From assembly GCF_019704555.1 (NCBI RefSeq), contig NZ_AP024745.1:8378501-8442500 (forward strand): 64,000 nt of DNA, written 5' to 3'. Below, one piece after another: positions 397 through 60,167 of this stretch. The position numbers were made by a program, and so were the translations under genes. Within the stretch, counting starts at the first letter, position 1, and every line of letters begins with the position of its first letter. The notes under the pieces were generated by a model. That model was not told where the DNA came from. It searched no databases and worked only from the letters and a program-made list of their open reading frames with translations. This stretch comes from Actinoplanes sp. L3-i22. GTDB lineage: Bacteria; Actinomycetota; Actinomycetes; Mycobacteriales; Micromonosporaceae.

Positions 397-545
397 TTCT
401 TTTGAACCGTGACCACCCACGGACGTCGCCCTTGCGGGTCTCGTGTTCTGGGCGCCCCGCGCCCTTGCGAGACCCGGAAGGGTCCCCGCGGGAGCGACGA
501 TCCGGACCCCGGCGGACCGAGGCAAAAATGAACTTGATCTTGAAG
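397..545 (+). repeat. dispersed intergenic element, copy 1 of 4
   Basis: First copy of a roughly 145-bp element found four times in the window. It holds the invariant 30-bp block (473-502). A nested hairpin has outer arms GGGTCTCG/CGAGACCC and inner arms GGGCGC/GCGCCC. An outer CGTCGC/GCGACG pairing spans them. A small leading hairpin GGTTC-TTTT-GAACC is at 395-408. The 3' third is the most diverged of the four copies but keeps the GAGGCAAAAATGAACTTGATC-like end. It lies between the riboswitch region and the citrate synthase terminator. No protein gene is supported in 180-600. Confidence 0.85.
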
Positions 546-604
546 TAGGTCCTGCTCGAAGAGCAGCCGCACCGTCCACCCTGGGCGATCGGGGACGCGA
601 AAAC

Positions 605-630
605 GCCCCACCGGATTTCCGGTGGGGCGC
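605..630 (-). terminator. bidirectional intrinsic terminator after citrate synthase
   Basis: A 12-bp GC-rich stem (CGCCCCACCGGA with its complement) closes over a 2-nt gap, or a 3-5 nt loop if it frays. It is flanked by AAAA on the left and GTTTTC on the right, so a T-tract follows the stem on either strand. It sits 98 nt beyond the citrate synthase stop and is the natural end of that transcript. It may also stop rightward transcription through repeat copy 1. Confidence 0.8.
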
Positions 631-727
631 GTTTTCAAAAGTCTTTCCGCCAGTGCCGGCGCCGAACTCCGCCTCTTGAGTCCGGGCCGTGTCGTTCAGT
701 TCTTTCCCAGAATTGCCGTGGAACTTC

Positions 728-2011
728 TCAGCGCTGCGACATCGGAACGAAGTCGCGGACCGGCGCGCCGGTGTAGATCTGCCGCGGGCGACCGATCTTG
801 TTCGCCGGGTCGTGCATCATCTCGCGGTACTGAGCGATCCAGCCCGGAAGACGCCCGATGGCGAACAGCACCGTGAACATCTTCGTCGGGAAGCCCATGG
901 CCTTGTAGATCAGGCCGGTGTAGAAGTCGACGTTCGGGTACAGCTTGCGGGAGACGAAGTAGTCGTCGTGGAGCGCGATCTCCTCGAGCTTGAACGCGAT
1001 CTCCAGCAGCGGGTCCGGGTTGTCCAGGGTCGACAGCATCTCCTGGGCGGCCTTCTTGACGATGGCGGCGCGCGGGTCGTAGTTCTTGTAGACCCGGTGG
1101 CCGAAGCCCATCAACTTGACGCCCTTCTCCTTGTTCTTCACTCGCGTGACGAAGGAGTTGACGTCGCCGCCGTCCTTGCGGATCTGCTCGAGCATCTCGA
1201 GCACCGCCGCGTTGGCGCCGCCGTGCAACGGGCCGGAGAGGGCGTTGATGCCGGCCGAGACCGAGGCGAACAGGTTCGCCTGGGCCGAGCCGACCATCCG
1301 GACGCTCGACGTGGAGCAGTTCTGCTCGTGGTCGGCGTGCAGCACGAACAGCATGTCGAGGATCTTCGCGACCTTCGGGTCGACGTCGTAGTTGACGGTC
1401 GGCAGGCCGAAGGTGAGGCGCAGGAAGTTCTCGACGTAGTCGAGCGAGTTGTCCGGGTACGGCAGCGGGTGACCGATCGACTTCTTGTACGCGTACGCCG
1501 CGATCGTCGGAAGTTTCGCCATCAGCCGGATTGCGGAGATATCGACCTGCTCGTCGTCCAGCGGGTCGAGCGCGTCCTGGTAGAAGGTGGACAGCGCGGT
1601 GACCGCCGAGGAGAGCACCGCCATCGGGTGCGCGTCACGCGGGAAACCGGAGAAGAAGGTCCGCATCTCCTCCTGGAGGAGCGTGTGCACACGGATCTTG
1701 TCGCCGAAGTCGCGCAGCTGAGCCTCGGTCGGGAGCTCGCCGTTCATCAGGAGGTACGAGACCTCCAGGAACGACGACTTCCCGGCCAGCTGCTCGATCG
1801 GGTATCCGCGGTAGCGGAGAATTCCGGCGTCACCGTCGATGTAGGTGATCGCCGAGGTGGTCGATGCGGTGTTGACGAAACCGACGTCGAGTGTGACGAA
1901 ACCGGTCTCCTTCAGCAGAGCACTGACGTCGATGCCGCCCGGCCCGTCGACGGCGTCGGTGACGCCCATCGACAATTGGCCACCGGGGTGGTCGAGCTTG
2001 ACATCCGTCAT
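728..2011 (-). CDS. gltA: citrate synthase (type II, hexameric family)
   Basis: Condenses oxaloacetate and acetyl-CoA to citrate at the entry of the TCA cycle in the cytosol. The 427-aa product matches the length of type II enzymes. The active-site blocks are visible: SGPLHGGAN (substrate His), MGFGHRVYKNYDPR (second His and Arg) and PNVDFYTGL (catalytic Asp). The N-terminal segment before the TSAITYIDGD block is the short beta-rich domain of this family. The ATG start is preceded by GAGGGAA at good spacing. The gene stands alone, ends at a strong hairpin, and is divergent from the Usp gene across a 183-bp promoter region. Assignment is secure; whether it is the main citrate synthase or a paralogue cannot be told. 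Confidence 0.95.
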   Translation of the reverse strand: MTDVKLDHPGGQLSMGVTDAVDGPGGIDVSALLKETGFVTLDVGFVNTASTTSAITYIDGDAGILRYRGYPIEQLAGKSSFLEVSYLLMNGELPTEAQLRDFGDKIRVHTLLQEEMRTFFSGFPRDAHPMAVLSSAVTALSTFYQDALDPLDDEQVDISAIRLMAKLPTIAAYAYKKSIGHPLPYPDNSLDYVENFLRLTFGLPTVNYDVDPKVAKILDMLFVLHADHEQNCSTSSVRMVGSAQANLFASVSAGINALSGPLHGGANAAVLEMLEQIRKDGGDVNSFVTRVKNKEKGVKLMGFGHRVYKNYDPRAAIVKKAAQEMLSTLDNPDPLLEIAFKLEEIALHDDYFVSRKLYPNVDFYTGLIYKAMGFPTKMFTVLFAIGRLPGWIAQYREMMHDPANKIGRPRQIYTGAPVRDFVPMSQR

Positions 2012-2108
2012 GTATTTCCCTCACTTCACCGGCAGATGTCCCAAAGATTTTGCCGTTCACCGTAAACCCTCAACCTGAATGGGTCATCAGGTGGCCACCC
2101 GGTGAGGC

Positions 2109-2127
2109 ATTGGTCACCAGTCCCTAT
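2109..2127. promoter_or_regulatory. possible DosR/DevR-type box
   Basis: Read on the minus strand this is ATAGGGACTGGTGACCAAT, which keeps the GGGACT half-site of the mycobacterial/actinobacterial DosR box and a weaker second half. It is centred about 50 bp upstream of the start expected from the putative promoter at 2134-2161, a usual DosR position, and Usp genes are classical DosR targets. A perfect 10-bp palindrome GGTGGCCACC lies just left (2090-2099). Single-site match; tentative. Confidence 0.35.
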
Positions 2128-2133
2128 GGACCG

Positions 2134-2161
2134 TTGCGCCATAGATAATGATCGGTATATT
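2134..2161 (+). promoter_or_regulatory. putative promoter of the Usp gene
   Basis: TTGCGC (2134-2139) and TATATT (2156-2161) are separated by 16 bp in an AT-richer patch, 33 nt upstream of the Usp start codon. This is a sequence-pattern call only. Confidence 0.4.
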
Positions 2162-2194
2162 GCGAGAACGTTACGGGGAGCGGAGGTCGGACCG

Positions 2195-3052
2195 ATGCAG
2201 ATCCCGAATCGGCCGCCCGTGGTGGTCGGCGTCAACAAGACCGCGGCCGGTCTGGCCGCCGTGCGCCTCGGCGCGCGCGAGGCGGTCTCCCGAGGCACTT
2301 CACTGTTCGTGGTGCACGCCTTCACCTGGAACGCGGCGGGGGACCGCCAGGTCGCCTCACGCGTCGTCGAGGAGGCGGTCACCACCGCCCAGCGTTCCAC
2401 ACCCGGCGTCGATGTGCGCGGTCAACTCGTGGATGGATCACCCGGATCGGTGCTGCGCCGGTACAGCCGGACCGCCACGATCCTGGTCGTCGGCGCGCGG
2501 CCGGGCGGGTCGGCGCTGCTGGAGGTGGTGACCCAGGCCTGGTGCCCGGTGATCGTGACGCACGGTCCGCGGCCGCCGGCCGGCCGGGTGCTGGCCGCGG
2601 TGGACGGTTCCGGGCCGTCCGTCCTGGCGCTCCGGTTCGCCGCCGAGATGGCCCGCCGCCGGGGGCGCCGGCTGGACGTGGCGTACGCGACCGGCGAGAG
2701 CGAGGGCGGCGAGAGCGCCGGGGCCCGGGTGCTCGACGAGGTGATCGCCGCGGTGCCGGACCTGCCGCCGCTGCGCCGCCGGCTGCTGACCGGGACACCG
2801 GCCGCCGCCCTGGAACGCGCGTCCCGGCGCTCCGCGCTGCTCGTGCTCGGGCCGCGCGGGACCGGTGGCGCCGCCCGGTTCGGGTCGGTGGCCTACGAGA
2901 TGCTCCGGCACAGCGGCTGCCCGACCGCCTTCGTCCACGGCCGCCGCGAGCCGGCCGCCCGCAAGGGCCGGGAGAATCGTGGGCCGGCCACGCACAAAGG
3001 TGGCGGGAAGTCGGAACCCGGCCACTCGACCACCCGCGCGTTGCTACGGTGA
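2195..3052 (+). CDS. tandem universal stress protein (UspA) family protein
   Basis: A 285-aa cytosolic protein built of two Usp domains, roughly residues 8-128 and 130-265. Usp proteins bind ATP or cAMP and are tied to dormancy, hypoxia and stress survival; the exact role is usually unknown. The second domain has a near-canonical nucleotide loop (GPRGTGGAARFGSVA); the first is more degenerate (GARPGGS). The ATG at 2195 was chosen over earlier in-frame starts because GGAGG lies 8 nt before it and the Usp fold begins at once (VVVGVNK). The gene is divergent from citrate synthase and carries the DosR-like box upstream. A basic C-terminal tail of about 30 residues is outside the fold. Confidence 0.8.
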   Translation: MQIPNRPPVVVGVNKTAAGLAAVRLGAREAVSRGTSLFVVHAFTWNAAGDRQVASRVVEEAVTTAQRSTPGVDVRGQLVDGSPGSVLRRYSRTATILVVGARPGGSALLEVVTQAWCPVIVTHGPRPPAGRVLAAVDGSGPSVLALRFAAEMARRRGRRLDVAYATGESEGGESAGARVLDEVIAAVPDLPPLRRRLLTGTPAAALERASRRSALLVLGPRGTGGAARFGSVAYEMLRHSGCPTAFVHGRREPAARKGRENRGPATHKGGGKSEPGHSTTRALLR

Positions 3053-3092
3053 GCAAAAGCTAAGTCTTAGGGCAAAACGGGAGGAATGCCCG

Positions 3093-5423
3093 GTGCGCTC
3101 CGTGCTCCCGCCCGCCATCGCCCGCCGCCAATGGCAGATCATGGCCGCCTTCGGGGTCGTCGTGACCGCGGTCTACACCGCCTACTCGTCGACCGGCCTC
3201 GCCTCCGGAAGCCTGGTCCTGCTCGGTGTGCTGACCGTGGTGGCCTGCTTCCTCGGTCCCCGTCGCTGGGGCGCCGAGCCACCTGCTGCGTGGCTGATGA
3301 TGGCCCTGGCCGCGCTGCTGTTCCTGGTCGGGCTGCTGATCCGGCCGACCGTCACCAACCTGGCGATGCCGCTGCCGCTGCTCGCCGACGTGGCCACGTT
3401 CAGCGGCTACCTGCTGCTCGGCGGCTTCCTGTTCATGCTGTTGCGGGCCCGGCAGAGCCTGGAGAAGCACGCCGTGCTGGACGGGCTGATCGTCTGCCTG
3501 GCCGCCGGGGTGACCAGCACGCTGCTGCTCGCCGCGCCGGCCGCGGCGATCTCCGGGCGGCCCGCGCTGCTCTCCATCATCCAGAGCAGCTATCCGCTCT
3601 TCGACGTGATGCTCGCGCTGCTCGTGATCAACCTGGCCTTCACCACCAAGACCTGGCCGGTCAGCATGGTCGCGCTGCTGGTGATGATGGTCGGACTGTT
3701 CCTCGGGGACACCGCGTACGCGATCGTCGGCGTGAACGGCCAGATCTACGCGTCCCCGCTGCTCAACCTGCCGTACGTGCCGGCGTACACGGCGCTGGGC
3801 GTGGCCGCGCTGCATCCGTCCGTGGTGGAGATGAGCCGGGCCGATCGGCTGCCCGTGCAGGCCTGGTCCTGGCAGCGCCTGGCGGTGCTGGTGCCGGCCC
3901 TGTTCCTGCCGTTCGGCCTGCTCCTGACGACCGGTACCAGCGCCGCCTCGCACCGGCTGCTGATCGCGGTCGCCGGCGCCCTGATGGTGGTGCTGCTGCT
4001 GTTCCGGGCGATCTCCGCGGTGCAGGGCCAGGTCGCCGCGCAGCTGCACTCCGAGCACCAGGCCACCCACGACCCGCTCACCTCGCTGCCGAACCGGCAG
4101 TCGATGTCCAGTGAGATCGAGCGGCTGGTCACCACCGTCGACCCGCACGGGCCGGACCGGGTCTGGGTGTACATGCTCGACCTGGACGGCTTCAAGTGGG
4201 TCAACGACTCGTGGGGGCACGACACCGGCGACCAGCTGGTGATCGAGGTCGGCCGGCGGCTGCGCGCCGCGGTGCCGGAGTCGGTGCCGGTGGCCCGGGT
4301 CGGCGGCGACGAGTTCCTGCTCGCCTTCGTCGGCGACAAGGCCGGCGCGCTGCGCCTGGTCGACGACGTCCGCGGCTGTTTCGCCCGGCCGCTGCCGGTG
4401 CGCGACACCGAGGTGGTGATCAGCGCGTCGATCGGGATCGCGCACTCCAGCGGCGACGCGATGCGCTCCGCGGTGACCGCCGAGGCGCTGATGCGCGACG
4501 CCGACACCGCGATGTACCGCGCCAAGGGCGAGGGCCCGGGCCGGTCCACGATCTTCGACACCACCATGCACGAGCAGGTGCGCGAGCGGATCGAGCTGGA
4601 GGTGGCGCTGCGGCAGGCGCTGGCGAACAACCAGCTGTACGTGGTCTACCAGCCGATCGTGCGGCTGGAGACCGGGATGCCGGTGGGCGCCGAGGCACTG
4701 GTCCGCTGGGAGCACCCGGAGCGCGGCTCGATCCCGCCGATGCTGTTCATCCCGATCGCCGAGGACGCCGGGCTGATCTCCGAGATCGGCACGTTCGTCC
4801 GGACCGAGGCGCTGCGCCAGCTCGGCGTCTGGCGCTCGCAGGGGGTCGTCTCGGAGAGCTTCTACCTGTCGATCAACGTGTCGCCGCGCCAGCTGAGCGA
4901 GGCGGAGCTGCCACTGGTGCTCTCCGGCGAGCTGTTCCGGTTCGGCGTGCCGGCCCAGTGCGTGGCGCTGGAGATGACCGAGTCGGTGATGGTGGACGGC
5001 TCCAGCGTCACCGCCCGGGTGCTGCACGAGCTGCGTCAGCTCGGCGTGAAGCTGCTGGTCGACGACTTCGGTACGGGCTTCTCCGCGCTCGGCTACCTGC
5101 GCCAGTTCCCGGTCACCGGCGTCAAGATCGACCGCTCGTTCGTGACCGGGCTCGGCAAGAACGACCAGGACGACGAGATCGTCCGGGCGGTCGTCGCGAT
5201 GAGCCACGCGCTGGGCCTGAGCGTGATCGCCGAGGGGGTGGAGACCCCGTTGCAGCGGGAGGCGCTCTACCACTTCGGCGTGGTCAACGGGCAGGGCTGG
5301 CTGTGGGGCCGCGGGGTGATCGCGGCCGAGTTCGCCGAGACCTGGCACCTGACCGCGGCGCTGCCCGAGGTGCCGCTGCCGGTCGCCGCGGTCACCAGCA
5401 GCGGCCGCCACCGCCGGGATTAG
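3093..5423 (+). CDS. membrane-anchored GGDEF-EAL protein (c-di-GMP cyclase/phosphodiesterase)
   Basis: A 776-aa protein with about eight hydrophobic segments in the first 300 residues, then a diguanylate cyclase domain with intact GGDEF at residue 404, and a C-terminal EAL domain. The EAL residues are present: EALVRW at 534, SINVSPRQL, EMTESVM, LLVDDFGTG, KIDRSFV and IAEGVET. Both synthesis and hydrolysis of c-di-GMP are therefore possible; which dominates cannot be read from sequence. GTG at 3093 is chosen because GGGAGGAA precedes it by 6 nt, just ahead of the first membrane segment; the frame is open further upstream, overlapping the Usp gene. The membrane part is probably the signal-sensing region. 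The gene ends in a 4-nt convergent overlap with the next gene. Confidence 0.9.
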   Translation: MRSVLPPAIARRQWQIMAAFGVVVTAVYTAYSSTGLASGSLVLLGVLTVVACFLGPRRWGAEPPAAWLMMALAALLFLVGLLIRPTVTNLAMPLPLLADVATFSGYLLLGGFLFMLLRARQSLEKHAVLDGLIVCLAAGVTSTLLLAAPAAAISGRPALLSIIQSSYPLFDVMLALLVINLAFTTKTWPVSMVALLVMMVGLFLGDTAYAIVGVNGQIYASPLLNLPYVPAYTALGVAALHPSVVEMSRADRLPVQAWSWQRLAVLVPALFLPFGLLLTTGTSAASHRLLIAVAGALMVVLLLFRAISAVQGQVAAQLHSEHQATHDPLTSLPNRQSMSSEIERLVTTVDPHGPDRVWVYMLDLDGFKWVNDSWGHDTGDQLVIEVGRRLRAAVPESVPVARVGGDEFLLAFVGDKAGALRLVDDVRGCFARPLPVRDTEVVISASIGIAHSSGDAMRSAVTAEALMRDADTAMYRAKGEGPGRSTIFDTTMHEQVRERIELEVALRQALANNQLYVVYQPIVRLETGMPVGAEALVRWEHPERGSIPPMLFIPIAEDAGLISEIGTFVRTEALRQLGVWRSQGVVSESFYLSINVSPRQLSEAELPLVLSGELFRFGVPAQCVALEMTESVMVDGSSVTARVLHELRQLGVKLLVDDFGTGFSALGYLRQFPVTGVKIDRSFVTGLGKNDQDDEIVRAVVAMSHALGLSVIAEGVETPLQREALYHFGVVNGQGWLWGRGVIAAEFAETWHLTAALPEVPLPVAAVTSSGRHRRD

Positions 5424-5959
5424 GGGAACTCGTAGAGCCAGAACGACTGGGCGTCCATCCGGGTCGGCACGGCCTTGCCGGCGACCCGGCTCAGGATCAC
5501 CCCGATCAGCCGGGGCAGCTGGTGCCGGTCCTCGTTGTAGGTGCAGATGTCCACGAACACCTTGCCGTCGACCGCGCCGATCGGCTGGTACAGCGTGCGC
5601 AGCAGCTCGACGAAGACCCCGGCGCCGCGCGAGCCGCGGGCCGCGCCGACGAACAGCACGTAGAAGATCCGCCGCTGGGCGTACAGCTCGGGCCAGTGGT
5701 GCGCGAAGTAGTCCGGCGAGATCAGCGAGACCGCGCTCAGCTCGGTGGTCATCGCGGCCAGCCCGACGACGTCGCCCGCGGCGTCGCGCGCCACGTACTT
5801 GTCCGCCCGCGGGTCGGCCATCAGCTCGTCGAACTCGACCTGGTGCAGCACGTGCCGGTTCACCGCGAGGATCGCCAGCTCGGAAAAGGCGTCGCGGTAG
5901 AAGCCCCAGGCCGGGTCGAGCAGCTCGGCCGGCAGCACCGGCATGACGTCCACGCGCAT
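5420..5959 (-). CDS. GNAT-like hypothetical protein
   Basis: A 179-aa protein with an N-acetyltransferase feel: a strand pattern YVARDAAGDVVGLAAM followed by IFYVLFVGAARGSRGAGVFVELL. The RGSRGAG stretch sits where the acetyl-CoA-binding loop of GNAT enzymes lies. Substrate unknown, and the family match is loose. The start is set at the second in-frame ATG (MRVDVMPVLP), where the fold begins; an upstream in-frame start at 5995 would add 12 residues. It is convergent with the GGDEF-EAL gene, the two stop codons overlapping. Confidence 0.55.
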   Translation of the reverse strand: MRVDVMPVLPAELLDPAWGFYRDAFSELAILAVNRHVLHQVEFDELMADPRADKYVARDAAGDVVGLAAMTTELSAVSLISPDYFAHHWPELYAQRRIFYVLFVGAARGSRGAGVFVELLRTLYQPIGAVDGKVFVDICTYNEDRHQLPRLIGVILSRVAGKAVPTRMDAQSFWLYEFP

Positions 5960-6088
5960 GACTGGCCCCCGTGAAGTTGTCCCGCTTCCCGACAAACCTC
6001 TCAGTCCCCCTGGTGCCGCGCGGGCAACTCCGGCATTATTCGCTCACGGATTTGCCCGGGTGATCCCGATCACCAGGTGGGAGGCGTG

Positions 6089-6214
6089 ATGTCGGAACTG
6101 TTCGGCGCCGAGGGCCACGCCCTCTGGCTCACCGCCGTGCTGCTGGCCCTGGTCGCCGGTCTCGGCGTGGCGCTGGTCGCGGCGACCCGCGGTGGGCTGC
6201 CACCGCGCCGATAA
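6089..6214 (+). CDS. small single-span membrane protein (41 aa)
   Basis: ATG at 6089, preceded by GGGAGG at 5-nt spacing, opens a 41-codon frame ending at TAA 6212-6214. The product is one hydrophobic helix ([20 protein letters not shown]) flanked by a short acidic N-terminus (MSELFGAEGHA) and a basic C-terminus (TRGGLPPRR), a classic Nin-Cout-ambiguous micro-protein. It ends 7 nt before the exonuclease III start, so it probably heads that transcript. No function can be assigned. The good ribosome site and codon use are the only support. Confidence 0.5.
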   Translation: MSELFGAEGHALWLTAVLLALVAGLGVALVAATRGGLPPRR

Positions 6215-6221
6215 TGGGTGG

Positions 6222-6995
6222 ATGCGCTTCGCCACCTGGAACGTCAACTCGGTCAAGGCCCGGCTCCCCCGCCTGCTCGACTGGCTGGAGAGCGCCGCTC
6301 CCGACGTGGTCTGCCTCCAGGAGACCAAGGTCGCCGCGGACGGCTTCCCGTCCGCCGAGGTCGCCGAGCTGGGCTACGAGACCGCGGAATACGGTCAGGG
6401 CCGCTGGAACGGTGTCGCGATCCTGTCCCGGGTCGGGATCGCCGAGGTCCGCCGCGGCTTCCCCGGCGAGCCCGGCTATCCGGACCCCGAGGCCCGCGCC
6501 GTCTCCGCGGTCTGCGACAAGATCAAATTCATGTCGGTGTACGTGCCCAACGGCCGGACCCCGGACGACCCGCACTACACCTACAAACTGGAGTGGCTGC
6601 GCGCCCTGCGCCTGACGCTCGCCACGGATCTGGCCGCCGGTCCCCTGGTGGTGGCCGGTGACTTCAACGTCGCGCCGACCGACGCGGACGTCTGGGACCC
6701 GGCGGTCTTCGCCGGCTCGACCCACGTCACGCCCCCGGAACGCGAGGCGATCGCCGCGCTGCGCGACCTCGGCCTCACCGACGTGCCGGCCCGGGCGATG
6801 AAGGGCGACCACCCGTTCACCTATTGGGATTACCGGGCGGGCATGTTCCACCAGAACAAGGGCATGCGCATCGATCACGTCTACACCAGCGCGGACCTGG
6901 CCGCCGCGGTGACGGATGCCGTGGTGGATCGCGAGGCGCGCAAGGGCAAGGGCCCGTCCGACCACGCGCCGGTGATCGTCGATCTGAAGCGCTGA
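6222..6995 (+). CDS. xthA: exodeoxyribonuclease III (AP endonuclease family)
   Basis: A 257-aa Mg2+-dependent endonuclease/exonuclease/phosphatase-fold enzyme that cleaves at abasic sites and trims 3' ends in base excision repair. The motifs appear in order: WNVNSVKARL, CLQETKV (metal-binding Glu), GRWNGVAILSR, YVPNGR (catalytic Tyr), GDFNVAPTDADVW (Asp/Asn), MRIDHVY and SDHAPVIVDL (catalytic Asp-His). The length is normal. The ATG at 6222 gives MRFATWNVNSVKA, the expected N-terminus; the upstream in-frame start would add residues outside the fold. The gene follows the small membrane protein closely. Confidence 0.92.
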   Translation: MRFATWNVNSVKARLPRLLDWLESAAPDVVCLQETKVAADGFPSAEVAELGYETAEYGQGRWNGVAILSRVGIAEVRRGFPGEPGYPDPEARAVSAVCDKIKFMSVYVPNGRTPDDPHYTYKLEWLRALRLTLATDLAAGPLVVAGDFNVAPTDADVWDPAVFAGSTHVTPPEREAIAALRDLGLTDVPARAMKGDHPFTYWDYRAGMFHQNKGMRIDHVYTSADLAAAVTDAVVDREARKGKGPSDHAPVIVDLKR

Positions 6996-22722: not shown

Positions 22723-22811
22723 CCCGCCGACCGCGCCGAGACGCCCGGAAACGACGCCGGGCCACGCTGCCGCTCATCGCGGTGCCGCGGTCCGGCGTCG
22801 TCGTTCCCGAA

Positions 22812-22957
22812 GATCAAATTCTTTTTTGCCTACGCTGCGGCCAATAACTGATCGTCGCTCCCGCGGGGACCCTTCCGGGCCTCGCAGGGCGCTGGCGCGC
22901 CCAGAACGCGAGACCCTCCAGGGCGACGTCCGCGGGTGGTCCCGGTTTAAAAGGACC
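22812..22957 (-). repeat. dispersed intergenic element, copy 2 of 4
   Basis: A full copy on the minus strand, starting 6 nt past the stop of the SigB/SigF-type gene. The invariant 30-bp block is 22850-22879. The outer hairpin arms are GGGTCTCG and CGAGGCCC, so one A-U pair becomes U-G when read on the minus strand. The inner arms are GGGCGC and GCGCCC with loop GCCA. It ends GTAGGCAAAAAAGAATTTG. A rightward open frame through it (LRPITDRRSRGDPSG) recurs in copy 3 and is judged a by-product of the repeat. Confidence 0.85.
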
Positions 22958-22963
22958 AGAAGA

Positions 22964-23737
22964 TCAGAGCTGGGCGTCGAGCTGGTTGCGGAGCTTGGCG
23001 AGGGCCTTGGTCAGCAGCCGGGAGACGTGCATCTGGGAGATCCCGATCTGGTCGGCGATCTGCGACTGCGTCAGGTTCCCGTAGAACCGCAGGGTCAGGA
23101 TCCGCTGCTCACGCTCGTCCAGCGTGGCCAGCGCCGGCCCCAGGGCCACCCGGGTCTCGGCCAGTTCGTACTCGTGGTCCTCGCCGCCGAGCGTGTCACC
23201 CAGCTCGGTCGAGCCGTCGGCGCTGATCGGCGTGGAGAGCGACGTCGCGTTGTAGGCGCGGGCGCCTTCCAGGCCCTCCAGCACCTCCTCCTCGCTGATC
23301 CCGAGGTGCCCGGCGATGTCCGGCACCGTCGGCGACCGGCCCAGCTTGTGGGTCAGCGTGCTGTTCGCCTCGGTGATCGCCAGCCGCAGCTCCTGCAGCC
23401 GGCGCGGCACCCGCACGGACCAGGTCCGGTCCCGGAAGTGCCGCTTGATCTCGCCGATGATGGTCGGGATCGCGTAGCCGGCGAAGTCGACACCGCGCTC
23501 GGGGTCGAACTTGTCGACCGCCTTGATCAGGCCGACCGTCGCGGTCTGGACCAGGTCGTCGGTCGGCTCGCCGCGGCCGGAGTAACGGTTGGCGAGGTGG
23601 CGGGCGAGAGGCAGCCAGGCCTCGATCGCACGGTCCCGGATCCGGGTCCGGTCCCGGCCCGGGGTCATCACCGCCATCGCGTCGAGCAGTTCGGTCGCGG
23701 TGGTCTCGGGTGCGCTATGAACCTCGATCACTGTCAT
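22964..23737 (-). CDS. SigB/SigF-family RNA polymerase sigma factor
   Basis: A 257-aa group 3 sigma factor for general stress or developmental genes. Region 2 has DDLVQTATVGLIKAVDKFDPERGVDFAGYAIPTIIGEIKRHFRD, with the typical TIIGEIKRHFRD of SigB/F/G proteins, then region 3 (RVPRRLQELRLAITEANSTL) and region 4 (LDEREQRILTLRFYGNLTQSQIADQIGISQMHVSRLLTKAL). ATG at 23737 follows GGAGG at 8 nt; the earlier in-frame start lies outside the domain. Its control by partner switching would connect to SpoIIE phosphatases such as the one at 7091, though no RsbW/STAS gene is adjacent. Repeat copy 2 sits in its 3' region. Confidence 0.92.
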   Translation of the reverse strand: MTVIEVHSAPETTATELLDAMAVMTPGRDRTRIRDRAIEAWLPLARHLANRYSGRGEPTDDLVQTATVGLIKAVDKFDPERGVDFAGYAIPTIIGEIKRHFRDRTWSVRVPRRLQELRLAITEANSTLTHKLGRSPTVPDIAGHLGISEEEVLEGLEGARAYNATSLSTPISADGSTELGDTLGGEDHEYELAETRVALGPALATLDEREQRILTLRFYGNLTQSQIADQIGISQMHVSRLLTKALAKLRNQLDAQL

Positions 23738-48617: not shown

Positions 48618-49223
48618 GTGACTCGTACCGCCAAAATCGCGGGCGCGGTCGGCGCACTAGCCCTCGCCGCCGTCGCCGTGCCCGCCGGCGTCTCCTTCGC
48701 CGGCACCGACCGGACGTCCGCCGCACCCGCGCCGGACACCCGGCCGGCCACCACCCAGGAAGAGAGTTTCCTGGGTGGCGTGCCCCAGGTCCCGGCCGCG
48801 CTGCAGCCGCCCGCCGGCAACGAGCTGCACGCGGTGCTCAAGGCCCGCGGCGTCCAGGTCTACGAATGCAAGCGCGGCACGTGGCAGCCGCTCGAACCGG
48901 CCGCGTCGCTGACCGGCGTGACCATGAGCCCGGTCAAGAAGGTCACCGCCGTCCACTTCCGCGGCCCGGCCTGGGTCTCCGACCAGGACGGCTCGATGGT
49001 CCAGGGCATCGACCCGATCACCACGCCGGCCCCGGACCCCGCGAACGTCCCGCAGGTCCTCTACAAGGCCACGGCCAACCGCGGCGGCGGCCTGTTCGGC
49101 GCGGTCACCTACATCCAGCGCATCGACCCGCACGGCGGCGCCGCCCCCTCGACAAGCTGCGGCGGCAACGACCCGGTGGCGGTCCCCTACCGAGCCGTGT
49201 ACCGATTTTTCACGAAAAAATAG
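48618..49223 (+). CDS. secreted DUF3455 protein
   Basis: A 201-aa exported protein. The signal peptide is about 1-29 (IAGAVGALALAAVAVPAGVSFA). The body has the DUF3455 hallmark VPAALQPPAGNELHAVLKARGVQVYECKRGTWQPLEPAASL, then VHFRGPAWVSDQDGSMVQG and VTYIQRIDPHGGAAPSTSCGGNDPVAVPYRAVYRF. The family occurs in bacteria and fungi and its function is unknown. Two Cys may form a disulfide. GTG start with GGGAAGG upstream. It ends against repeat copy 3, convergent with a PP2C gene. Confidence 0.82.
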   Translation: MTRTAKIAGAVGALALAAVAVPAGVSFAGTDRTSAAPAPDTRPATTQEESFLGGVPQVPAALQPPAGNELHAVLKARGVQVYECKRGTWQPLEPAASLTGVTMSPVKKVTAVHFRGPAWVSDQDGSMVQGIDPITTPAPDPANVPQVLYKATANRGGGLFGAVTYIQRIDPHGGAAPSTSCGGNDPVAVPYRAVYRFFTKK

Positions 49224-49231
49224 CCCAGACC

Positions 49232-49370
49232 TTAAAGATCTTCATTGCCTCGGCTGCGGCCAATAACTGATCGTCGCTCCCGCGGGGACCCTTCCGGGCC
49301 TCGCAAGGGCGCGGGGCGCCCAGAACACGAGACCCGCAAGGGCGATGTCCGAGGGTGGTTGCGGTCTAAA
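49232..49370 (-). repeat. dispersed intergenic element, copy 3 of 4
   Basis: A copy on the minus strand beginning 15 nt past the stop of the PP2C gene at 49386. The invariant block is 49269-49298. The outer hairpin is GGGTCTCG/CGAGGCCC (one U-G pair on the minus strand) and the inner is GGGCGC/GCGCCC with loop CCC. It ends GAGGCAATGAAGATC. Its other edge touches the stop of the DUF3455 gene. Confidence 0.85.
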
Positions 49371-50535: not shown

Positions 50536-50540
50536 GCGGG

Positions 50541-53491: not shown

Positions 53492-53592
53492 CAGGACTCC
53501 TCGAGGCGTGCGGCGGCGCCAGAGATCAGCGCCTATGGGAGCGGCGGCCGACACATCGGTGGGGATCGTTGGCCGACGCGGACAGCATTACA

Positions 53593-53606: not shown

Positions 53607-53690
53607 GCGCAACGATCCCGAAACAGAAGGGCAATGGGGCGTTCATGGTGCAACAACCGGGTCCCCGGCGGCCATAGGTGTGATGTGACC

Positions 53691-54224: not shown

Positions 54225-55072
54225 TCGCCAACCTTGAGCCGCCGGCGGAGCGTGACCTGCCGCCCGCTCGCGCCGCGCGAATGCGCGCCACGCTCCTGAG
54301 CGCCGCAAAACCGAAGACCCGGCGCTGGGTGCGCCTCGCGGTGGCGGCCTCGCTCACGGCCGCGGTCGCTGTCGCGATTGCCGGGGTACGGCCGCAGCGG
54401 CTGCCCACCACGCTCGCGCTCGGCCCGGACCAGCTCTCGTCAACCCTGGAAGCCGTCGTCGACCACTGCCTCGGGCAGCGCTACGACCTGGCCGAGCGGA
54501 CAGCCGTGGCCGACATCCCGGTGGTCACCGCACGGGACGTCGCGGTCGCCGCCGAGTCGCGGGGCCAGGCGATCGCCCTCTTCGTCACCGACCAGGGCTT
54601 CTTCGCCTGCACCCTGGACCAGATCGTCCGCCCGATCATCGGCGTGCGGATCCAGGCCGGGGGCGGCCTCACCGGCGGCGGGTGGAACGGCGGGCGCGAC
54701 TGGCTGCCCGGCCCGGTGCAGGTCCTGATGAGCGGCGCCGCGGTCCCGGAGACGGGCCCGGCCGAGATGAGCCTGGTCGGGCGGGTCAGCTCCCGGGTCG
54801 CCCGGCTGGTCGCCGAGGACGGCACGCACACCGTCGAGGCGCGGCTCGCGAACGGCATGTTCGGCCTGCTCGCGGGCACCGACGAGGTGGCCTACGCGGG
54901 GCAGCTGGTCGCCTACGACGCGGGCGGCGCGGAGATCTCCCGGGAGCCGATGTTCCCGCAGGCCACCGACGACCGCTGCTGGACCGGCCCGGACGGCGCG
55001 ATCCTCTACCCGGATCCGAGCTACCCCGGACCGGCCGGGAGGTGCCTCCCGGCCGAGCCCTGGGGGCACTGA
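54221..55072 (+). CDS. single-pass membrane protein coupled to the ECF sigma factor (possible anti-sigma partner)
   Basis: A 283-aa protein. A short cytosolic N-terminus (about 1-38, basic) is followed by one membrane helix at about 40-56 (RLAVAASLTAAVAVAIAGV) and a 225-residue outer domain that is beta-rich with three Cys (VVDHCLGQRY; FFACTLDQ; DDRCWTGP). It overlaps the sigma gene by ATGA with GGAAGGA upstream. The layout is that of an ECF regulator, but no zinc anti-sigma (HxxxCxxC) motif is present and the N-terminal part is too short for a usual anti-sigma domain. The role is inferred from position only. Confidence 0.7.
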   Translation: MIANLEPPAERDLPPARAARMRATLLSAAKPKTRRWVRLAVAASLTAAVAVAIAGVRPQRLPTTLALGPDQLSSTLEAVVDHCLGQRYDLAERTAVADIPVVTARDVAVAAESRGQAIALFVTDQGFFACTLDQIVRPIIGVRIQAGGGLTGGGWNGGRDWLPGPVQVLMSGAAVPETGPAEMSLVGRVSSRVARLVAEDGTHTVEARLANGMFGLLAGTDEVAYAGQLVAYDAGGAEISREPMFPQATDDRCWTGPDGAILYPDPSYPGPAGRCLPAEPWGH

Positions 55073-55077
55073 CCGCC

Positions 55078-56601
55078 CTACGGCGTCAGGTGGACGCCGC
55101 CGCCACCGCGCTTGGCCTCGTACATCGAGGCGTCGGCGTGCTGCATCAGGACCCCGAAGTCGATCGCGTGCCGCGGGAACAGTGACACCCCGATGCTCGC
55201 GCCGATCTGCACCGAGCGGCCGTCGATCTGGAACGGCTCGCGCAGCCGCTCGCAGATCCGCTCGCCGACCCGGACCGCCCCGGCCTCGTCCGGGTTCGCG
55301 GTGACCAGCACCGAGAACTCGTCGCCACCGAGCCGGGCGGCCAGGTCCGGCTTGCGGATCAGGCCGTCCAGGCGCTTCGCCACCAACTGCAGCAGCACGT
55401 CGCCGGCGTGGTGCCCGATCGTGTCGTTGACCTGCTTGAACCCGTTCAGGTCGAGCAGCAGCAGGCCCAGCCGGGTGCCGGTGGCCATGGCGATCTCGAC
55501 CGCCTGCTCACCCCGGTCCAGCAGCGCCTTGCGGTTCGGCAGGCCGGTCAGCGAGTCGTGGAACGCCTGCCGGGTCAGCTCCTGCATGTGCTGCCGGTTC
55601 GCCTCCCGCATCCGGGCGCTGTCCATGATCAGCGCGCCCTCGGCGGCCAGCTGCTGGGCCAGGATCCGGTCCCGCGCGGTCCACTCCCGGGCGCCCGACG
55701 AGTCCCCGCACATCACCATGCCGACCGGTCCGAAACCGGTCATCAACGGCATCGCGATGAACGAGCCCAGCTCCAGCGTCTGCGCCATCCCACCGGGCCG
55801 GGTCTTGGCCGTCGCGGTGTTCCCGACCAGCACCGGCTCGCCCGACTCGACCGTGCTGCGCCACACCGGCGACTCGATCGCGGACTTGCCGACCAGGTTC
55901 TCCCGCAGCGTGCCGAGCCGTTCGTCGGGGCAGCCGACGCCGTAGACGTACCGGATCCGGCCGTCGTTGTCGATCAGGTGCAGGGCGGCGTGCTCGGTGC
56001 GGAACGCCGTGGCGCACGAGTGGGTCAGCAGCTCGGCCGCCTCCTCCACGCTGCCCGCGGTCATCCCCTTCTCGAACAGCTCCTGGATCGTCGAGCTGGT
56101 GTGCGCCACGAACTGCCGGGCCTTCTCCGCGAACAGCCCCTGCAGGGTGGTGGCGAAGTGCAGCGCGACCGTCGAGATGGTGTCCTGGCGCAGCTCCGCC
56201 AGCAGGTCCCCGGTCAGCAGCAGCACGCCGACGGTCTGGCCGCCGATCCGCAGGCGGATCGCCATCTGCTGGCCGCTGACCACCGGCGGTCCACCGGCCG
56301 CGGCCCGGAAGACCTTGCCGGCGACCAGTTGGTCCCGCCGGCCCGGCTCACCGAACTGGGCGGTCGCCCCCATCAGCCCGCTCTCCGAGTCCAGCTCGAA
56401 GACGGTCGCCGCGGTCAGCCCGGCGAGCTCCCGCAGGTGCGGAGTCATCAGGTCGAGCACGTGCTGCACCGAAGGGGTGTCCTTGGTCATGAAGCCGACC
56501 AGCTCGGCCAACAGCAGAACCTGCCGGTCAGGTTCCGCGCCAGTAACGCCGGCGGCCTCCACCAGAGGTCCGGCTGTGTGCAATCCGCTGCCCACGCTCA
56601 T
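55078..56601 (-). CDS. GAF-GAF-GGDEF diguanylate cyclase
   Basis: A 507-aa soluble c-di-GMP synthase. There are two GAF-like modules (about 25-155 and 165-320: AALHLIDNDGRIRYVYGVG; GSFIAMPLMTGFGPVGMVMCGD), a helical linker, and a GGDEF domain (about 335-505) with DSLTGLPNRKALLDR, LLLLDLNGFKQVNDTIGHHAGDVLL and ARLGGDEFSVLV intact. There is an RxxD-type region before the active loop (RKPDLAARLGGDEF), so product inhibition is possible. ATG at 56601. It is convergent with the gene at 54221, 5 nt apart. Confidence 0.9.
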   Translation of the reverse strand: MSVGSGLHTAGPLVEAAGVTGAEPDRQVLLLAELVGFMTKDTPSVQHVLDLMTPHLRELAGLTAATVFELDSESGLMGATAQFGEPGRRDQLVAGKVFRAAAGGPPVVSGQQMAIRLRIGGQTVGVLLLTGDLLAELRQDTISTVALHFATTLQGLFAEKARQFVAHTSSTIQELFEKGMTAGSVEEAAELLTHSCATAFRTEHAALHLIDNDGRIRYVYGVGCPDERLGTLRENLVGKSAIESPVWRSTVESGEPVLVGNTATAKTRPGGMAQTLELGSFIAMPLMTGFGPVGMVMCGDSSGAREWTARDRILAQQLAAEGALIMDSARMREANRQHMQELTRQAFHDSLTGLPNRKALLDRGEQAVEIAMATGTRLGLLLLDLNGFKQVNDTIGHHAGDVLLQLVAKRLDGLIRKPDLAARLGGDEFSVLVTANPDEAGAVRVGERICERLREPFQIDGRSVQIGASIGVSLFPRHAIDFGVLMQHADASMYEAKRGGGGVHLTP

Positions 56602-56771
56602 GGCCCTATGGTCGGCGTCAACCGGGCGGGGTTGAGCCGGGATGGCCGTGTGCGTGGTCGCAGTTCGGGAGCGACGCGGTTCCCGGATGGCTGAAAACGC
56701 CGTATGTCCTGGTCATCGACATGCTGGGCGGTTACCGTCAGGACACCTCGTCAGGGTGACCGGAGGGGACT

Positions 56772-57278
56772 GTGAACGCGTACCGGAAACTGGTGGCCGT
56801 CGCGGCGGTCACCCTCTTCCTCTCGGCCGCCGCGGCCGCCGCCGTGCTGTCCCGCGTCGACCGGACGGCGCCGGCCTACGTCCCGGTCGCCCTGCCACGC
56901 ACCGGCTTCGGCGCGCGGCCGGAGCCCTGGCCCAGCGCGTCCGGCCCGGCCGCCGAGCTGGAGTTCACCCACCGGGACGACCTGGCCACGCTCGACCTGA
57001 CCGGGCAGTACGCGGCCGAGCTCGCCGCTGCCGCCGGCGACCACACCGACCCGGCCTCGATCCTCGCCGAGCACCAGCGGCTGCGCCGGGCGCTGGCCAG
57101 CGACGAGCACCCGGTCGTCCTCCTCCGGACCACCGACCTGCGGCATCCGGCGAGCGACCCCGGGACGTGGCTGACGGTCGCCCTCGGCGACTTCCCCAGC
57201 TCGGCCGCCGTGACCGCCTGGTGCCACTCGGTCCCCACCGCCCACTGCCTCCCCCGCCGCCTCGACCCACCCCGCTGA
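56772..57278 (+). CDS. exported hypothetical protein
   Basis: A 168-aa protein with an N-terminal hydrophobic helix (LVAVAAVTLFLSAAAAAAVLS) that acts as signal or anchor. An extracytoplasmic part of about 140 residues follows, with two Cys near the C-terminus (AWCHSVPTAHCLP), probably a disulfide. GTG start with GGAGGGG at 3-4 nt. No domain recognised. It is followed by the C-rich spacer. Confidence 0.65.
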   Translation: MNAYRKLVAVAAVTLFLSAAAAAAVLSRVDRTAPAYVPVALPRTGFGARPEPWPSASGPAAELEFTHRDDLATLDLTGQYAAELAAAAGDHTDPASILAEHQRLRRALASDEHPVVLLRTTDLRHPASDPGTWLTVALGDFPSSAAVTAWCHSVPTAHCLPRRLDPPR

Positions 57279-57284
57279 CCCACC

Positions 57285-57655
57285 CCGCCGCACGCTCCCC
57301 TCCCCCGCCGCACCGCGCCCCGTCGCACCGCACCCCGCGCCCCGTCGCACCCGCGCGGCACCGCACCCCGCGCCCCACTGCCGCGCCTCGCCGCACTGCC
57401 GCGCCCCGCACCACCCCGCGCCGCGCCGCGCACCGCCGCCCCGCACCGCCCCGCACCACCCCGCACCACCCCGCGCCGCGCACCGCCGCCCCGCCACGCG
57501 CCGCGCACCGCCGCCCGCGCCAGCTCCGCACCACGCCGCGCCCCGACCCGGCCCGCGCGGCCCCGGGCCCCGCCGCGCCCGCCCCGCCACACGCCGGCCC
57601 GCGCCACCACGCCGCCGCACCGCGCCGCCACGGCCCGGCCCGCGGCGGCGCGGCA
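57285..57655. repeat. strand-asymmetric C-rich low-complexity region
   Basis: About 370 bp consisting almost wholly of C-rich degenerate units (CCGCACC, CCCCGCGCC, GCCGCGC) on the plus strand, with G confined to CG steps and little A/T. No single period holds across it, but short words such as CGCACCGC and CACCCCGCG recur many times. It separates the exported protein from the HAD gene. Open frames here are artefacts of the composition. Confidence 0.7.
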
Positions 57656-57708
57656 CACTGTGTTCCGCGTCGCGTCGGGCCGGCCCGCTCATCCGGGATA
57701 CTGCGTCG

Positions 57709-58374
57709 ATGACGATCGAGGCGCTGATCTTCGACTTCGACGGCCTGCTGATGGACACCGAGAGCACGCTGCTGGACAGCTGGCGCTGGGAGTGGCGGCA
57801 GCACGGCCTGGAGCTCGACGAGGCCGGGTTCTTCGCGGAGCACGGCGGGGACGTCAGCGAGCTGCGCTACACCGTGCTGGCCGCCGCCGTCGGGCCGGAC
57901 TTCGATCGGGCGGCCAGCCACGCCCGCCGCCGCGCCTACCGCGAGCGGGTGCACGCCGGCCTGGCCCTGAACCCCGGCATCGCCGCCTGGCTCGACGAGG
58001 CCGGACGCCTCGGCCTGCGGCTCGCGGTGGCCAGCAGCTCCCCGGCCTGGTGGGTGCGGGGCGAGCTGGCCCGGACCGGTGACCTGGCCCGCTTCGAGGT
58101 CCTGGCCTACGGCGACGAGGTCGCCGCGCACAAGCCGGACCCGGCGGTCTACCACCTGGCACTGGCCCGCCTCGACCTGAAGTCGGAGCAGGCGGTCGCC
58201 TTCGAGGACAGCCCGCACGGCGTCACCGCCGCCCAGTCCGCCGGCCTGCGCTGCGTCGCGATCCCGAACCCGTTCACCCCGGCGACCCGGTACACCCACG
58301 CGGACGTCGTGCTGCCGAGCGCCACCACGACAACCCTCAGCGAGGCCCTGACCCGCGCAACCCACGACTTCTAG
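57709..58374 (+). CDS. HAD-superfamily hydrolase (beta-phosphoglucomutase-like subfamily)
   Basis: A 221-aa enzyme with motif I FDFDGLLMDTES (nucleophile and acid Asp), motif II VASSSP, motif III Lys in AAHKPDPAVY and motif IV FEDSPHGVTAA. The cap is the helical C1 type of subfamily IA, so it is a phosphatase or mutase acting on a small sugar phosphate or similar. The substrate cannot be read. ATG start immediately after the C-rich spacer. The 3' end lies inside a series of short repeats. Confidence 0.88.
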   Translation: MTIEALIFDFDGLLMDTESTLLDSWRWEWRQHGLELDEAGFFAEHGGDVSELRYTVLAAAVGPDFDRAASHARRRAYRERVHAGLALNPGIAAWLDEAGRLGLRLAVASSSPAWWVRGELARTGDLARFEVLAYGDEVAAHKPDPAVYHLALARLDLKSEQAVAFEDSPHGVTAAQSAGLRCVAIPNPFTPATRYTHADVVLPSATTTTLSEALTRATHDF

Positions 58375-58505
58375 CCACCCCCACAACCCACGCGACCCGC
58401 AGCTTCTGGCCACCCGCGCAGCCCGCACAACCCGCGCAGCCCGCGCAGCCCGCGCAGCCCGCGCAGCCCGCAACTTCTAGCCACCCGCGCGACCTTCTAG
58501 CCACC
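58366..58505. repeat. short repeats around the HAD gene stop: TTCTAGCCACCC copies and a 9-bp array
   Basis: TTCT(A/G)GCCACCC occurs four times (about 58369, 58404, 58477 and 58494); the first copy contains the HAD stop codon. Between the second and third is a tandem CAGCCCGCG array (about five to six units, 58418-58470). The repeated words look like slippage or duplication of the gene's 3' end. Confidence 0.7.
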
Positions 58506-58611
58506 CGCCGAGCCAGCCACCTGCCGAGCCGGGGACGCCCGCCGCCTCGCAAACCCCTCAAATCTCGCCTATCCGGAAAATCCCCCACGGCTCAGGACGC
58601 TGGAAGGCGGC

Positions 58612-58770
58612 GGGCCACGAAGACCCACACGACGCGACGGGCCACGAAGACCCACACGACGCGACGGGCCACGAAGACCCACACGACGCGACGGGCCGCG
58701 AAAGCCCACACGACGCGACGGGCCGCGAAAGCCCACACGACGCGACGGGCCGCGAAAGCCCACGCGACAC
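58612..58770. repeat. six tandem 27-bp units in two subtypes
   Basis: Units start at 58612, 58639, 58666, 58693, 58720 and 58747. The first three read GGGCCACGAAGACCC and the last three GGGCCGCGAAAGCCC, each followed by ACACGACGCGAC (last unit varied). On the minus strand each unit can form a small hairpin in which the subtype change alters a U-G pair to C-G. No spacers, so it is not CRISPR. It lies 42 nt upstream of the acyl-CoA dehydrogenase start. Confidence 0.85.
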
Positions 58771-58811
58771 GGGACTCTTAGATTTCCGCGGGACGGGGAA
58801 TGTAGGCCCGC

Positions 58812-59954
58812 ATGCTCGTCGGAGATCTTTACGCGTTTCAGGGACTGCTGTCCGAGGACGAGGCCGCGACCGTGCACCGGGTCCGCGACTTCCTGGCGGC
58901 CGAGGTGACCCCGATCGCCAACGAATACTGGGCCCGGGCCGAGTTCCCGACCCACCTGATCAAGCAGTTCGCCGGCCTCGGCCTGGCCGGCCAGGAACGC
59001 TCGTCGCTGCTCAACGGCTGGCTGGCGCTCGAGATGGCGCACGCGGACGCCTCGATGGCGACGTTCTACGGCGTCCACGCCGGGCTCGCGATGGGCAGCA
59101 TCCAGTCCTGCGGCTCGCCGGAGCAGCGCGAACGCTGGCTGCCCGGGATGACCGCGTTCGATCAGGTCGGCGCGTTCGCGCTGACCGAGCCGACCGGTGG
59201 CTCGGACGTGGCCGCCGGGCTGCGCACCACGGCCCGCCGGGACGGTGACACCTGGGTGCTGAACGGGCAGAAGCGCTGGATCGGCAACGCCACCTTCGCC
59301 GACCTGATCGTGGTCTGGGCCCGGGACGTCGAGGACGACCAGGTGAAGGGCTTCGTCGTGCCGGGCGGCACGCCCGGCTTCACGGCCACCAAGATCGAGA
59401 ACAAGATCGCGCTGCGGATCGTGCAGAACGCCGACATCACGCTCACCGACGTGCGCGTGCCCGAGGCGGACCGGCTGCAGAACGCGAACTCGTTCAAGGA
59501 CACCGCCAAGATCCTGCGCCAGACCCGCAGCGGGGTGGCCTGGGAGGCGGTCGGGGTGATGCTCGCGGCCTACGGGATCGCCCTGAAGTACGCCGGCGAG
59601 CGCGAGCAGTTCGGCCGACCGATCGCGAAGTTCCAGCTGGTCCAGGACCTGCTCGTACGGATGCTCGGGAACGTCACCGGCTCGCTCGGGATGTGCGTGC
59701 GGCTGGCCCAGTTGCAGGACGCCGGGCAGTACCGGGACGAGCACTCGGCGCTGGCCAAGGCGTACTGCACGACCCGGATGCGCGAGGTCGTCGGCTGGGC
59801 CCGGGAGCTGCTCGCCGGCAACGGCATCGTGCTGGACTACGACATCGGTCGCTTCGTGGCCGACGCCGAGGCCCTCTACTCCTACGAGGGAACCCGGGAG
59901 ATCAACACGCTGATCGTCGGACGCGCGATCACCGGCCACGGCGCCTTCGTGTAG
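58812..59954 (+). CDS. acyl-CoA dehydrogenase, glutaryl-CoA dehydrogenase-like
   Basis: A 380-aa FAD enzyme. Signatures are GAFALTEPTGGSDVAAGLRTTARRDGDTWVLNGQKRWIGNA (FAD/substrate) and YAGEREQFGRPIAKFQLVQDLL. The C-terminal catalytic region YSYEGTREINTLIVGRAITG places the base Glu as in glutaryl-CoA dehydrogenase, which oxidises and decarboxylates glutaryl-CoA in lysine/tryptophan breakdown. The close match of this last block supports that subfamily, but other short-chain substrates remain possible. The ribosome site is weak (GGGGAATG region). The 27-bp array is directly upstream and repeat copy 4 downstream. Confidence 0.88.
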   Translation: MLVGDLYAFQGLLSEDEAATVHRVRDFLAAEVTPIANEYWARAEFPTHLIKQFAGLGLAGQERSSLLNGWLALEMAHADASMATFYGVHAGLAMGSIQSCGSPEQRERWLPGMTAFDQVGAFALTEPTGGSDVAAGLRTTARRDGDTWVLNGQKRWIGNATFADLIVVWARDVEDDQVKGFVVPGGTPGFTATKIENKIALRIVQNADITLTDVRVPEADRLQNANSFKDTAKILRQTRSGVAWEAVGVMLAAYGIALKYAGEREQFGRPIAKFQLVQDLLVRMLGNVTGSLGMCVRLAQLQDAGQYRDEHSALAKAYCTTRMREVVGWARELLAGNGIVLDYDIGRFVADAEALYSYEGTREINTLIVGRAITGHGAFV

Positions 59955-60020
59955 CGGCCGGGGTTTCCGCGGCCACCCGCGGATGAGGAGAGCGGTGAAC
60001 CCGTACACGGGTTTTGTGGG

Positions 60021-60167
60021 TTGACCGCAACCACCCACGGACGTCGCCCTGTAGGGTCTCGCGTTCTGGGCGCCCCACGCCCTGCGAGACCCGGAAGGGT
60101 CCCCGCGGGAGCGACGATCAGTTATCGGCCGCAGCCGAGGCAATAAAGAACTTGAATTTGATCTTTG
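60021..60167 (+). repeat. dispersed intergenic element, copy 4 of 4
   Basis: A plus-strand copy beginning 66 nt past the acyl-CoA dehydrogenase stop and ending 66 nt before glyS. The invariant block is 60090-60119. The outer hairpin is GGGTCTCG/CGAGACCC (fully paired); the inner is shortened to GGGCG/CGCCC. The leading GGTTG-ACCG-CAACC hairpin is intact. The 3' end (CGGCCGCAGCCGAGGCAATA onward) matches copies 2 and 3 and includes a CGGC-CGCA-GCCG hairpin. Confidence 0.85.

Follow-up and report, generated by a model that had tools for sequence, protein, structure and literature searches.

A dispersed family of small, structured and probably mobile intergenic elements in Actinoplanes

Introduction

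BOX, RUP and SPRITE repeats are short, structured sequences that are enriched between convergent genes and, in the sections of the source cited here and below, are thought to be parasitic and non-autonomous (PMC3049150). For stem-loop repeats, the cited part of another study counts 92 families in 40 bacterial genomes (PMC2267715), and the cited portion of the genome paper of Actinoplanes sp. SE50/110 mentions only unspecified short repetitive elements (PMC3364876). Here we describe structured intergenic elements of roughly 148 nt, four copies of which lie in a 64,000-nucleotide stretch of Actinoplanes sp. L3-i22 (hereafter the window; positions 8,378,501-8,442,500 of a single contig of 12,014,766 bases). 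These elements probably represent a previously undescribed Micromonosporaceae family of small, non-autonomous, structured mobile elements, in the general class of BOX and ERIC.

Like BOX of Streptococcus, the Actinoplanes elements are shorter than about 200 bp, intergenic, present in many copies, predicted to fold as RNA and enriched between convergent genes; for BOX, as here, the mobiliser is unclear and a parasitic, non-autonomous nature has been proposed (PMC3049150). Unlike them, BOX is described in that source as modular (boxA, boxB and boxC), with a fold derived from one genome, whereas the Actinoplanes family shows compensatory changes across species and carries a TTGATCTT-like tail. 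The enterobacterial ERIC or RU-1 element (127 bp) is similar in size class, intergenic position, multiple copies and mobility, but the cited passages describe it as resembling a miniature inverted-repeat transposable element (MITE), and no terminal inverted repeats were detected at the four window copies (PMC2759123, PMC2229807). The pneumococcal SPRITE is likewise found near gene 3' ends and enriched between convergent genes; it resembles a simple terminator, whereas the Actinoplanes element has several helices, and it is the tail rather than a hairpin that abuts the stop codon (PMC3049150). Three features set the Actinoplanes family apart from the BOX, RUP and SPRITE class as characterised there: a covarying multi-helix fold, a tail set against the stop codon, and the homogenisation of copies that occupy shared sites.

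With their length below about 200 bp, many dispersed intergenic copies, extensive secondary structure and convergent enrichment, the elements have the characters of the BOX/ERIC class. We know of no sequence shared with BOX, and the distinction from BOX and ERIC is drawn from their descriptions only. REP sequences, the partners of RAYT transposases, also form sets of hundreds of structured intergenic repeats, but the copy-rich L3-i22 genome has no Y1 transposase. No Rfam 15 family was matched at the gathering cut-off by the element in the window and 15 related loci, and no published description of the family was found in the open-licence literature, in agreement with the original prediction that the family was not a described one.

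Results

The 30-bp block that characterises the element occurs, with up to three mismatches, 99 times on one strand and 96 times on the other strand of the L3-i22 genome (195 in total), while a reversed control pattern searched in the same way gave no match in the whole genome; this rules out chance or local duplication. The figure is a lower bound because the model search also finds L3-i22 copies with other versions of the block. Among the first 100 exact-block copies listed, none falls between 3.82 and 5.37 Mb, so the copies are unevenly spread. The original prediction, made from the letters of the window, had expected a family dispersed through the genome at about one copy per 16 kb. Its dispersal is borne out by the at least 195 block matches, and copies recur well beyond the window and in the genomes of relatives, contrary to the first condition named for refuting it; the density applies inside the window, but not genome-wide, where 195 copies in 12.0 Mb amount to one per ~62 kb. 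In the window itself, the family model returns exactly four strong matches (92.7-123.5 bits; the next best scores 14.5 bits), at the places where copies had been predicted. The copies and their parts are as follows:

402-549, plus strand: copy 1 (model match, 123.5 bits)
425-485, plus strand: nested hairpin P1-P2-P3 of copy 1 (predicted fold and covariation)
473-502, plus strand: invariant 30-bp block of copy 1 (exact match)
521-541, plus strand: AT-rich 3' tail of copy 1 (GGCAA...TTGATCTT)
22802-22950, minus strand: copy 2 (116.1 bits)
22806-22816: direct repeat at the tail end of copy 2, with its partner at 22956-22966 at the 5' end (91% identical)
22850-22879, minus strand: invariant 30-bp block of copy 2 (exact match)
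49221-49369, minus strand: copy 3 (92.7 bits)
49269-49298, minus strand: invariant 30-bp block of copy 3 (exact match)
60020-60167, plus strand: copy 4 (117.5 bits)
60090-60119, plus strand: invariant 30-bp block of copy 4 (exact match)

The block is identical in all four copies, none of which overlaps a predicted gene, and each contains the expected nested hairpin; as RNA, 0, 0, 1 and 4 of 200 shuffled sequences, respectively, fold as well or better. Two details of the prediction need amendment. The motif GAGGC followed by an A-rich end is present in three copies, but copy 2 reads GTAGGC, and 'near-identical' was generous given a mean pairwise identity of 85.7% among L3-i22 copies. The A-rich start of the copy ends runs on into the TTGATCTT-like tail. 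The original observation is otherwise confirmed, and its interpretation as a dispersed, structured, intergenic, genome-wide and undescribed family is supported.

The fold of the plus strand is conserved. In an alignment of 35 diverse Actinoplanes copies, the consensus has a small hairpin at its 5' end and a long stem, P1-P2, capped by P3; a further short hairpin, P4, overlaps with the invariant block. Standard pairs fill 97.0% of the 910 pair cells, compared with a mean of 85.4% after shuffling and at most 51.1% when the structure is slid along the alignment; two-sided changes occur in 11 of the 26 pairs, and the covariation score is 0.347 versus 0.138. A 48-row alignment that includes other genera was fitted to the model, and such an alignment leans towards its structure; here the standard pair cells reach 90.5% versus 67.2%. 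The paired columns of the 35-copy alignment contain 82 G-U or U-G cells and no A-C or C-A cells (136 and 1 in a further alignment, A1), so it is the plus strand that folds, as had been labelled in the original prediction, and the alignment fold scores -38.5 forward versus -26.2 in reverse. The folding molecule could be either RNA or single-stranded DNA. A further, outer helix (P0) between the 5' end and the block was considered and is not supported, as its middle pair is non-standard in 28/35 rows. In 76 of the 79 copies described below, one of the reverse frames stays open for 119 nt; a coding role is weakened by the frequency of open frames at such G+C content and by length changes of 1 nt between copies.

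Genomic position was assessed for 79 copies, 57 from L3-i22 (of at least 195) and 22 from Actinoplanes cyaneus, with open reading frames (ORFs) predicted by our own scoring of codon-position G+C. A search with the exact 30-mer had given 22 fetched stretches, all from A. cyaneus, in a collection that may omit the L3-i22 record itself. No well-scoring ORF overlaps any of the 79 copies by more than 60 nt. Fifty-eight lie between convergent genes, against a baseline of 50/232 convergent pairs among neighbouring ORFs (12/49 in the window and 38/183 at other Actinoplanes loci); 11 are antisense to a co-directional pair, five are in sense with one, three lie between divergent genes and two have one side undetermined. 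The copies thus sit at gene 3' ends, most tightly on the tail side, where the gene ends facing the element in 70/79 cases with a median gap of 8.5 nt and in 40 of those 70 the tail lies between -15 and +20 nt from the stop codon that faces it. On the 5' side, the gene ends facing the element in 63/79 cases, and the median gap is 158 nt. No conserved promoter was seen upstream of the element; T-rich sequence precedes the L3-i22 copies. Folding of the upstream sequence does not exceed that of shuffles (9/57 at z below -2, mean z -0.57; 8/57 downstream). Both observations bear on a possible preference for insertion behind intrinsic terminators.

Several other arrangements occur around the copies. 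All three fetched L3-i22 loci with two opposed copies (L066, L068 and L077) are head-to-head pairs with their 5' ends facing. A second repeat accompanies the element at ten A. cyaneus loci (L031-L034, L036-L038 and L047-L049), about 100-200 nt upstream of it. This repeat is a long, nearly perfect palindrome, CCGGCTGGT...ACCAGCCGG, whose loop is short and whose arms carry paired changes. A short tandem repeat of TCCGGT/TTCCGG lies immediately 5' of the single copy in genome G013 (L094).

Comparison of one L3-i22 copy (L003, at 10.66 Mb) with its counterparts reveals insertion polymorphism between species. The tail-side gene is present in 67/67 congeneric genomes, and 30 loci were fetched. The element is found at the junction in six (139-145 bits in G000, G040 and G014; 62-66 bits in G037, G038 and G060), and its ends are visible around a run of N in G031. 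Sixteen loci keep the same left gene without the element; in 15 of them the two genes overlap or almost touch, and in G047 a different sequence separates them. The other seven have a different neighbour. Since the same gene pair occurs without the element in 16 relatives, the element inserts. A one-gene tree does not resolve the key forks at this locus and is compatible with a single gain followed by losses as well as with multiple gains. TTGATCT is found at both ends of the L003 insert and was not seen at the empty sites; TTGATCT or TGATCTT lies just upstream of 5/65 L3-i22 copies, where 0.43 would be expected. Genome G031 has further runs of N, and its locus L216 contains GATGTGTATAAGAGACAG, which we take to be a Nextera transposon end and probably an assembly artefact.

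At the copy 2 locus, the gene was matched in 63/67 genomes and 30 loci were again fetched. In eight, an element lies either in the space between the two genes or next to the gene end; its distance from that end is 0-91 nt in seven and 948 nt in G027, where it is on the side of the sigma gene. Five of the eight share the orientation of copy 2 and three are opposite (G001, G029 and G027), which argues for repeated insertion in this intergenic site. Another 12 loci lack the element, with at most 257 nt from the gene end to the sigma motif.

Within a genome, the copies have become alike and form mosaics, a pattern of concerted evolution. Mean identity is 0.857 within L3-i22, 0.832 within A. cyaneus and 0.729 between the two. 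With about 57 of the at least 195 L3-i22 copies compared, flanks matching an L3-i22 locus were found for 7/22 A. cyaneus loci, and for 10 of 28 loci that each hold one top-scoring copy of another genome (three of these align on one side only). A script count gives the same orientation in 15 of 16 such pairs, three of which match one member of an L3-i22 head-to-head pair. Eight same-site pairs have identities of only 0.667-0.768, and in seven of them at least 89% of the L3-i22 copies are closer to the L3-i22 member than its same-site counterpart is. At closer distances, same-site copies are alike (L097 and L109 differ in 14/149 columns, L086 and L087 in 12/149), so turnover is not instant. All 57 L3-i22 copies have distinct haplotypes of common variants, and all four combinations of variants occur in 403/780 site pairs, including 232/421 that are more than 40 columns apart (265/561 site pairs in A. 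cyaneus). These mosaic haplotypes point to exchange between copies. An exact 27-mer is shared by 55/57 L3-i22 copies, many of which were found through that block, and the invariance of the block may reflect recent homogenisation.

Across 67 congeneric genomes, 54 match the first family model (R1) at E <= 0.001, with 0 to at least 46 matches per genome; copy number between species thus ranges from none detected to at least 195. A more diverse model (R2) matches 48 of 200 sampled Micromonosporaceae at E <= 1e-4, namely 32 of the 36 congeneric genomes in the sample plus 16 genomes from seven other genera. R2 also matches three genomes that R1 does not (G021, G025 and G054), and four match neither model (G005, G028, G041 and G065). 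Fourteen of the 16 non-congeneric genomes were searched again and all match at E <= 0.01. The clearest relatives outside Actinoplanes are in one genus (g19), with 16-34 matches, many of them weak, in each of six genomes. Most of the non-congeneric copies that were read (19 sequences and more) carry both the GCGGGAGC core and a tail resembling TTGATCTT; some of the isolated weak matches elsewhere in Micromonosporaceae may be due to chance. Among 98 genomes of the class, a sample with one other Micromonosporaceae member, there were three weak matches beyond L3-i22 itself, all unlike the element, and plasmids and phages gave no match to it. G013 and G016 have one R1 match apiece. Their elements occupy the same dnaJ-side site and differ by three compensated pairs, while two pairs are broken in one of them; the intergenic DNA nearby bears little resemblance between the two genomes, which may hold further divergent copies.

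Candidate mobilisers were sought among Y1 transposases and reverse transcriptases (RTs). Y1 transposase (PF01797) is encoded in 20/67 genomes, with no match in the copy-rich L3-i22, G027, G037 and G060, and is rejected as the mobiliser for L3-i22. The RVT_1 domain is matched in 45/67 genomes; L3-i22 has one weak match (42.7 bits), and there is none in G038 or G060, which have at least 46 element matches each. Whereas a retron noncoding RNA lies next to its RT, no element was found within ~5 kb of the RT at any of 20 fetched RT loci (~11 kb each; best E 0.18). Eighteen of these 20 loci share a similar RT, retron-type by look and one of a set found in many Actinoplanes, and two of these RTs that were checked score best with PADLOC RT_other and RT_outgroup. 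By eye, most of the RT loci L243-L258, L260 and L261 have a conserved upstream sequence bounded by GGCAGCGTG...CACGCTG, L260 being a clear exception. A partner gene beside single-copy and low-copy elements was also considered, but translations judged by eye revealed only ordinary neighbours, e.g. dnaJ, rsmE and folE.

The four window copies lack terminal inverted repeats; the inverted matches found there are internal hairpin arms, a palindrome in the tail of copy 3, and one pair at copy 1 that reaches outside the ends. Direct repeats are absent from the flanks of copies 1, 3 and 4, and the 11-nt repeat around copy 2 could be either a target duplication or a second copy of the tail motif. The G+C content of the four copies (0.63-0.66) is slightly under that of the window (0.716), and they are not AT-rich as a MITE would be. 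Their neighbours in the window are:

728, end of the right-hand neighbour of copy 1: convergent citrate synthase gene (PF00285)
22722, end of a neighbour of copy 2: YflT-domain gene, plus strand
22964, end of the other neighbour of copy 2: sigma-70-type gene, minus strand
49223, end of a neighbour of copy 3: DUF3455 gene, plus strand
49386, end of the other neighbour of copy 3: PP2C/SpoIIE-like gene, minus strand
59954, end of the left neighbour of copy 4: acyl-CoA dehydrogenase gene, plus strand
60234, predicted start of the right neighbour of copy 4: fused glycyl-tRNA synthetase alpha/beta gene, plus strand

The sole Rfam match at gathering level in the window is a cobalamin riboswitch at 11-140 on the minus strand.

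Discussion

We consider a family of small, non-autonomous mobile elements the probable explanation. Machinery acting in trans would insert the element beside gene 3' ends, potentially by using the structured strand, as RNA or single-stranded DNA, together with the TTGATCTT-like tail. Sequence exchange could follow, either through ectopic gene conversion or through successive replacements at sites that already hold a copy, and the inserted strand may be transcribed, with selection keeping the fold at some sites. Several observations weigh against this explanation. No mobiliser was found in the survey of Y1 and RT families (other transposase families, e.g. DDE and serine, were not surveyed). One same-site pair, L075/L047, is an exception to homogenisation, with only 39% of L3-i22 copies closer, and another, L002/L042, is the one in opposite orientation. 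The counts of four combinations can be inflated by recurrent mutation at constrained sites, and some of the counted sites fall in the tail, where alignment is poor, or are pairing partners, which would have the same effect. Private variants in L3-i22 number 5 in the 30 block columns versus 14 in 68 and 14 in 42 columns elsewhere; as they are not rarer in the block, invariance alone is no proof of selection at each copy. Homogenisation could also affect a set of copies that is fully fixed and serves the host.

That last possibility, a host-functional element at convergent gene ends in which each copy is kept by selection and mobility is ancient, appears rather unlikely. It could act as a terminator, as a shield against antisense read-through into the tail-side gene, or as a dispersed family of small RNAs, roles that would suit the placement of the tail at the facing stop codon (40/70), the three head-to-head pairs, the orientation kept at 15/16 shared sites, and the compensated pairs of the dnaJ-side copies in G013 and G016. 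Those copies have two pairs broken in one genome, however, and the G016 copy is antisense within the dnaJ-rsmE gene order; four congeneric genomes have no match, copy number is highly variable, 16 relatives lack the element at L003, and upstream of the copies there is neither a visible conserved promoter nor folding beyond that of shuffles.

A bacterial retroposon similar to a short interspersed element (SINE), with an RT in trans copying the structured RNA and copying starting or slipping at the TTGATCTT-like tail, is improbable. It would agree with a plus-strand fold biased to G-U, with the observed insertion, and with tails of variable length that consist of TTGATCTT-like units in series, a feature shared by other genera, and template switching could produce the mosaics; yet L3-i22 has one weak RT match and two genomes with at least 46 copies have none, and the retron-type RTs of other species lack the element nearby and have a different conserved upstream sequence. 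Slightly less probable still is a relict of a DNA transposon moved by a transposase, be it a MITE, a REP/RAYT element or a derivative of IS200/IS605. Size, structure, position and patchiness are MITE-like or REP-like, and the direct repeat at copy 2 and the excess of TTGATCT/TGATCTT upstream of copies would fit, but the window copies are G+C-rich and have no terminal inverted repeats, three of them have no direct repeat, and the absence of Y1 from copy-rich genomes largely refutes the REP/RAYT version. One further reading is likewise improbable: a SINE-like system would spread through RNA, its TTGATCTT-like tail would target gene 3' ends at genus-wide preferred sites, constant recopying would keep the copies of each genome uniform, and the RNA would now serve the host at convergent ends.

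The family bears on a wider question, namely by what means BOX, ERIC and comparable repeats move and why they persist. The Actinoplanes family offers an unusually good handle on it, with strong strand-specific covariation, clean empty sites, sister species of low and high copy number, and concerted evolution that can be followed site by site. It predicts a novel mobilising or homogenising factor in antibiotic-producing bacteria, and many Micromonosporaceae genomes would gain an RNA-like family that is so far unannotated.

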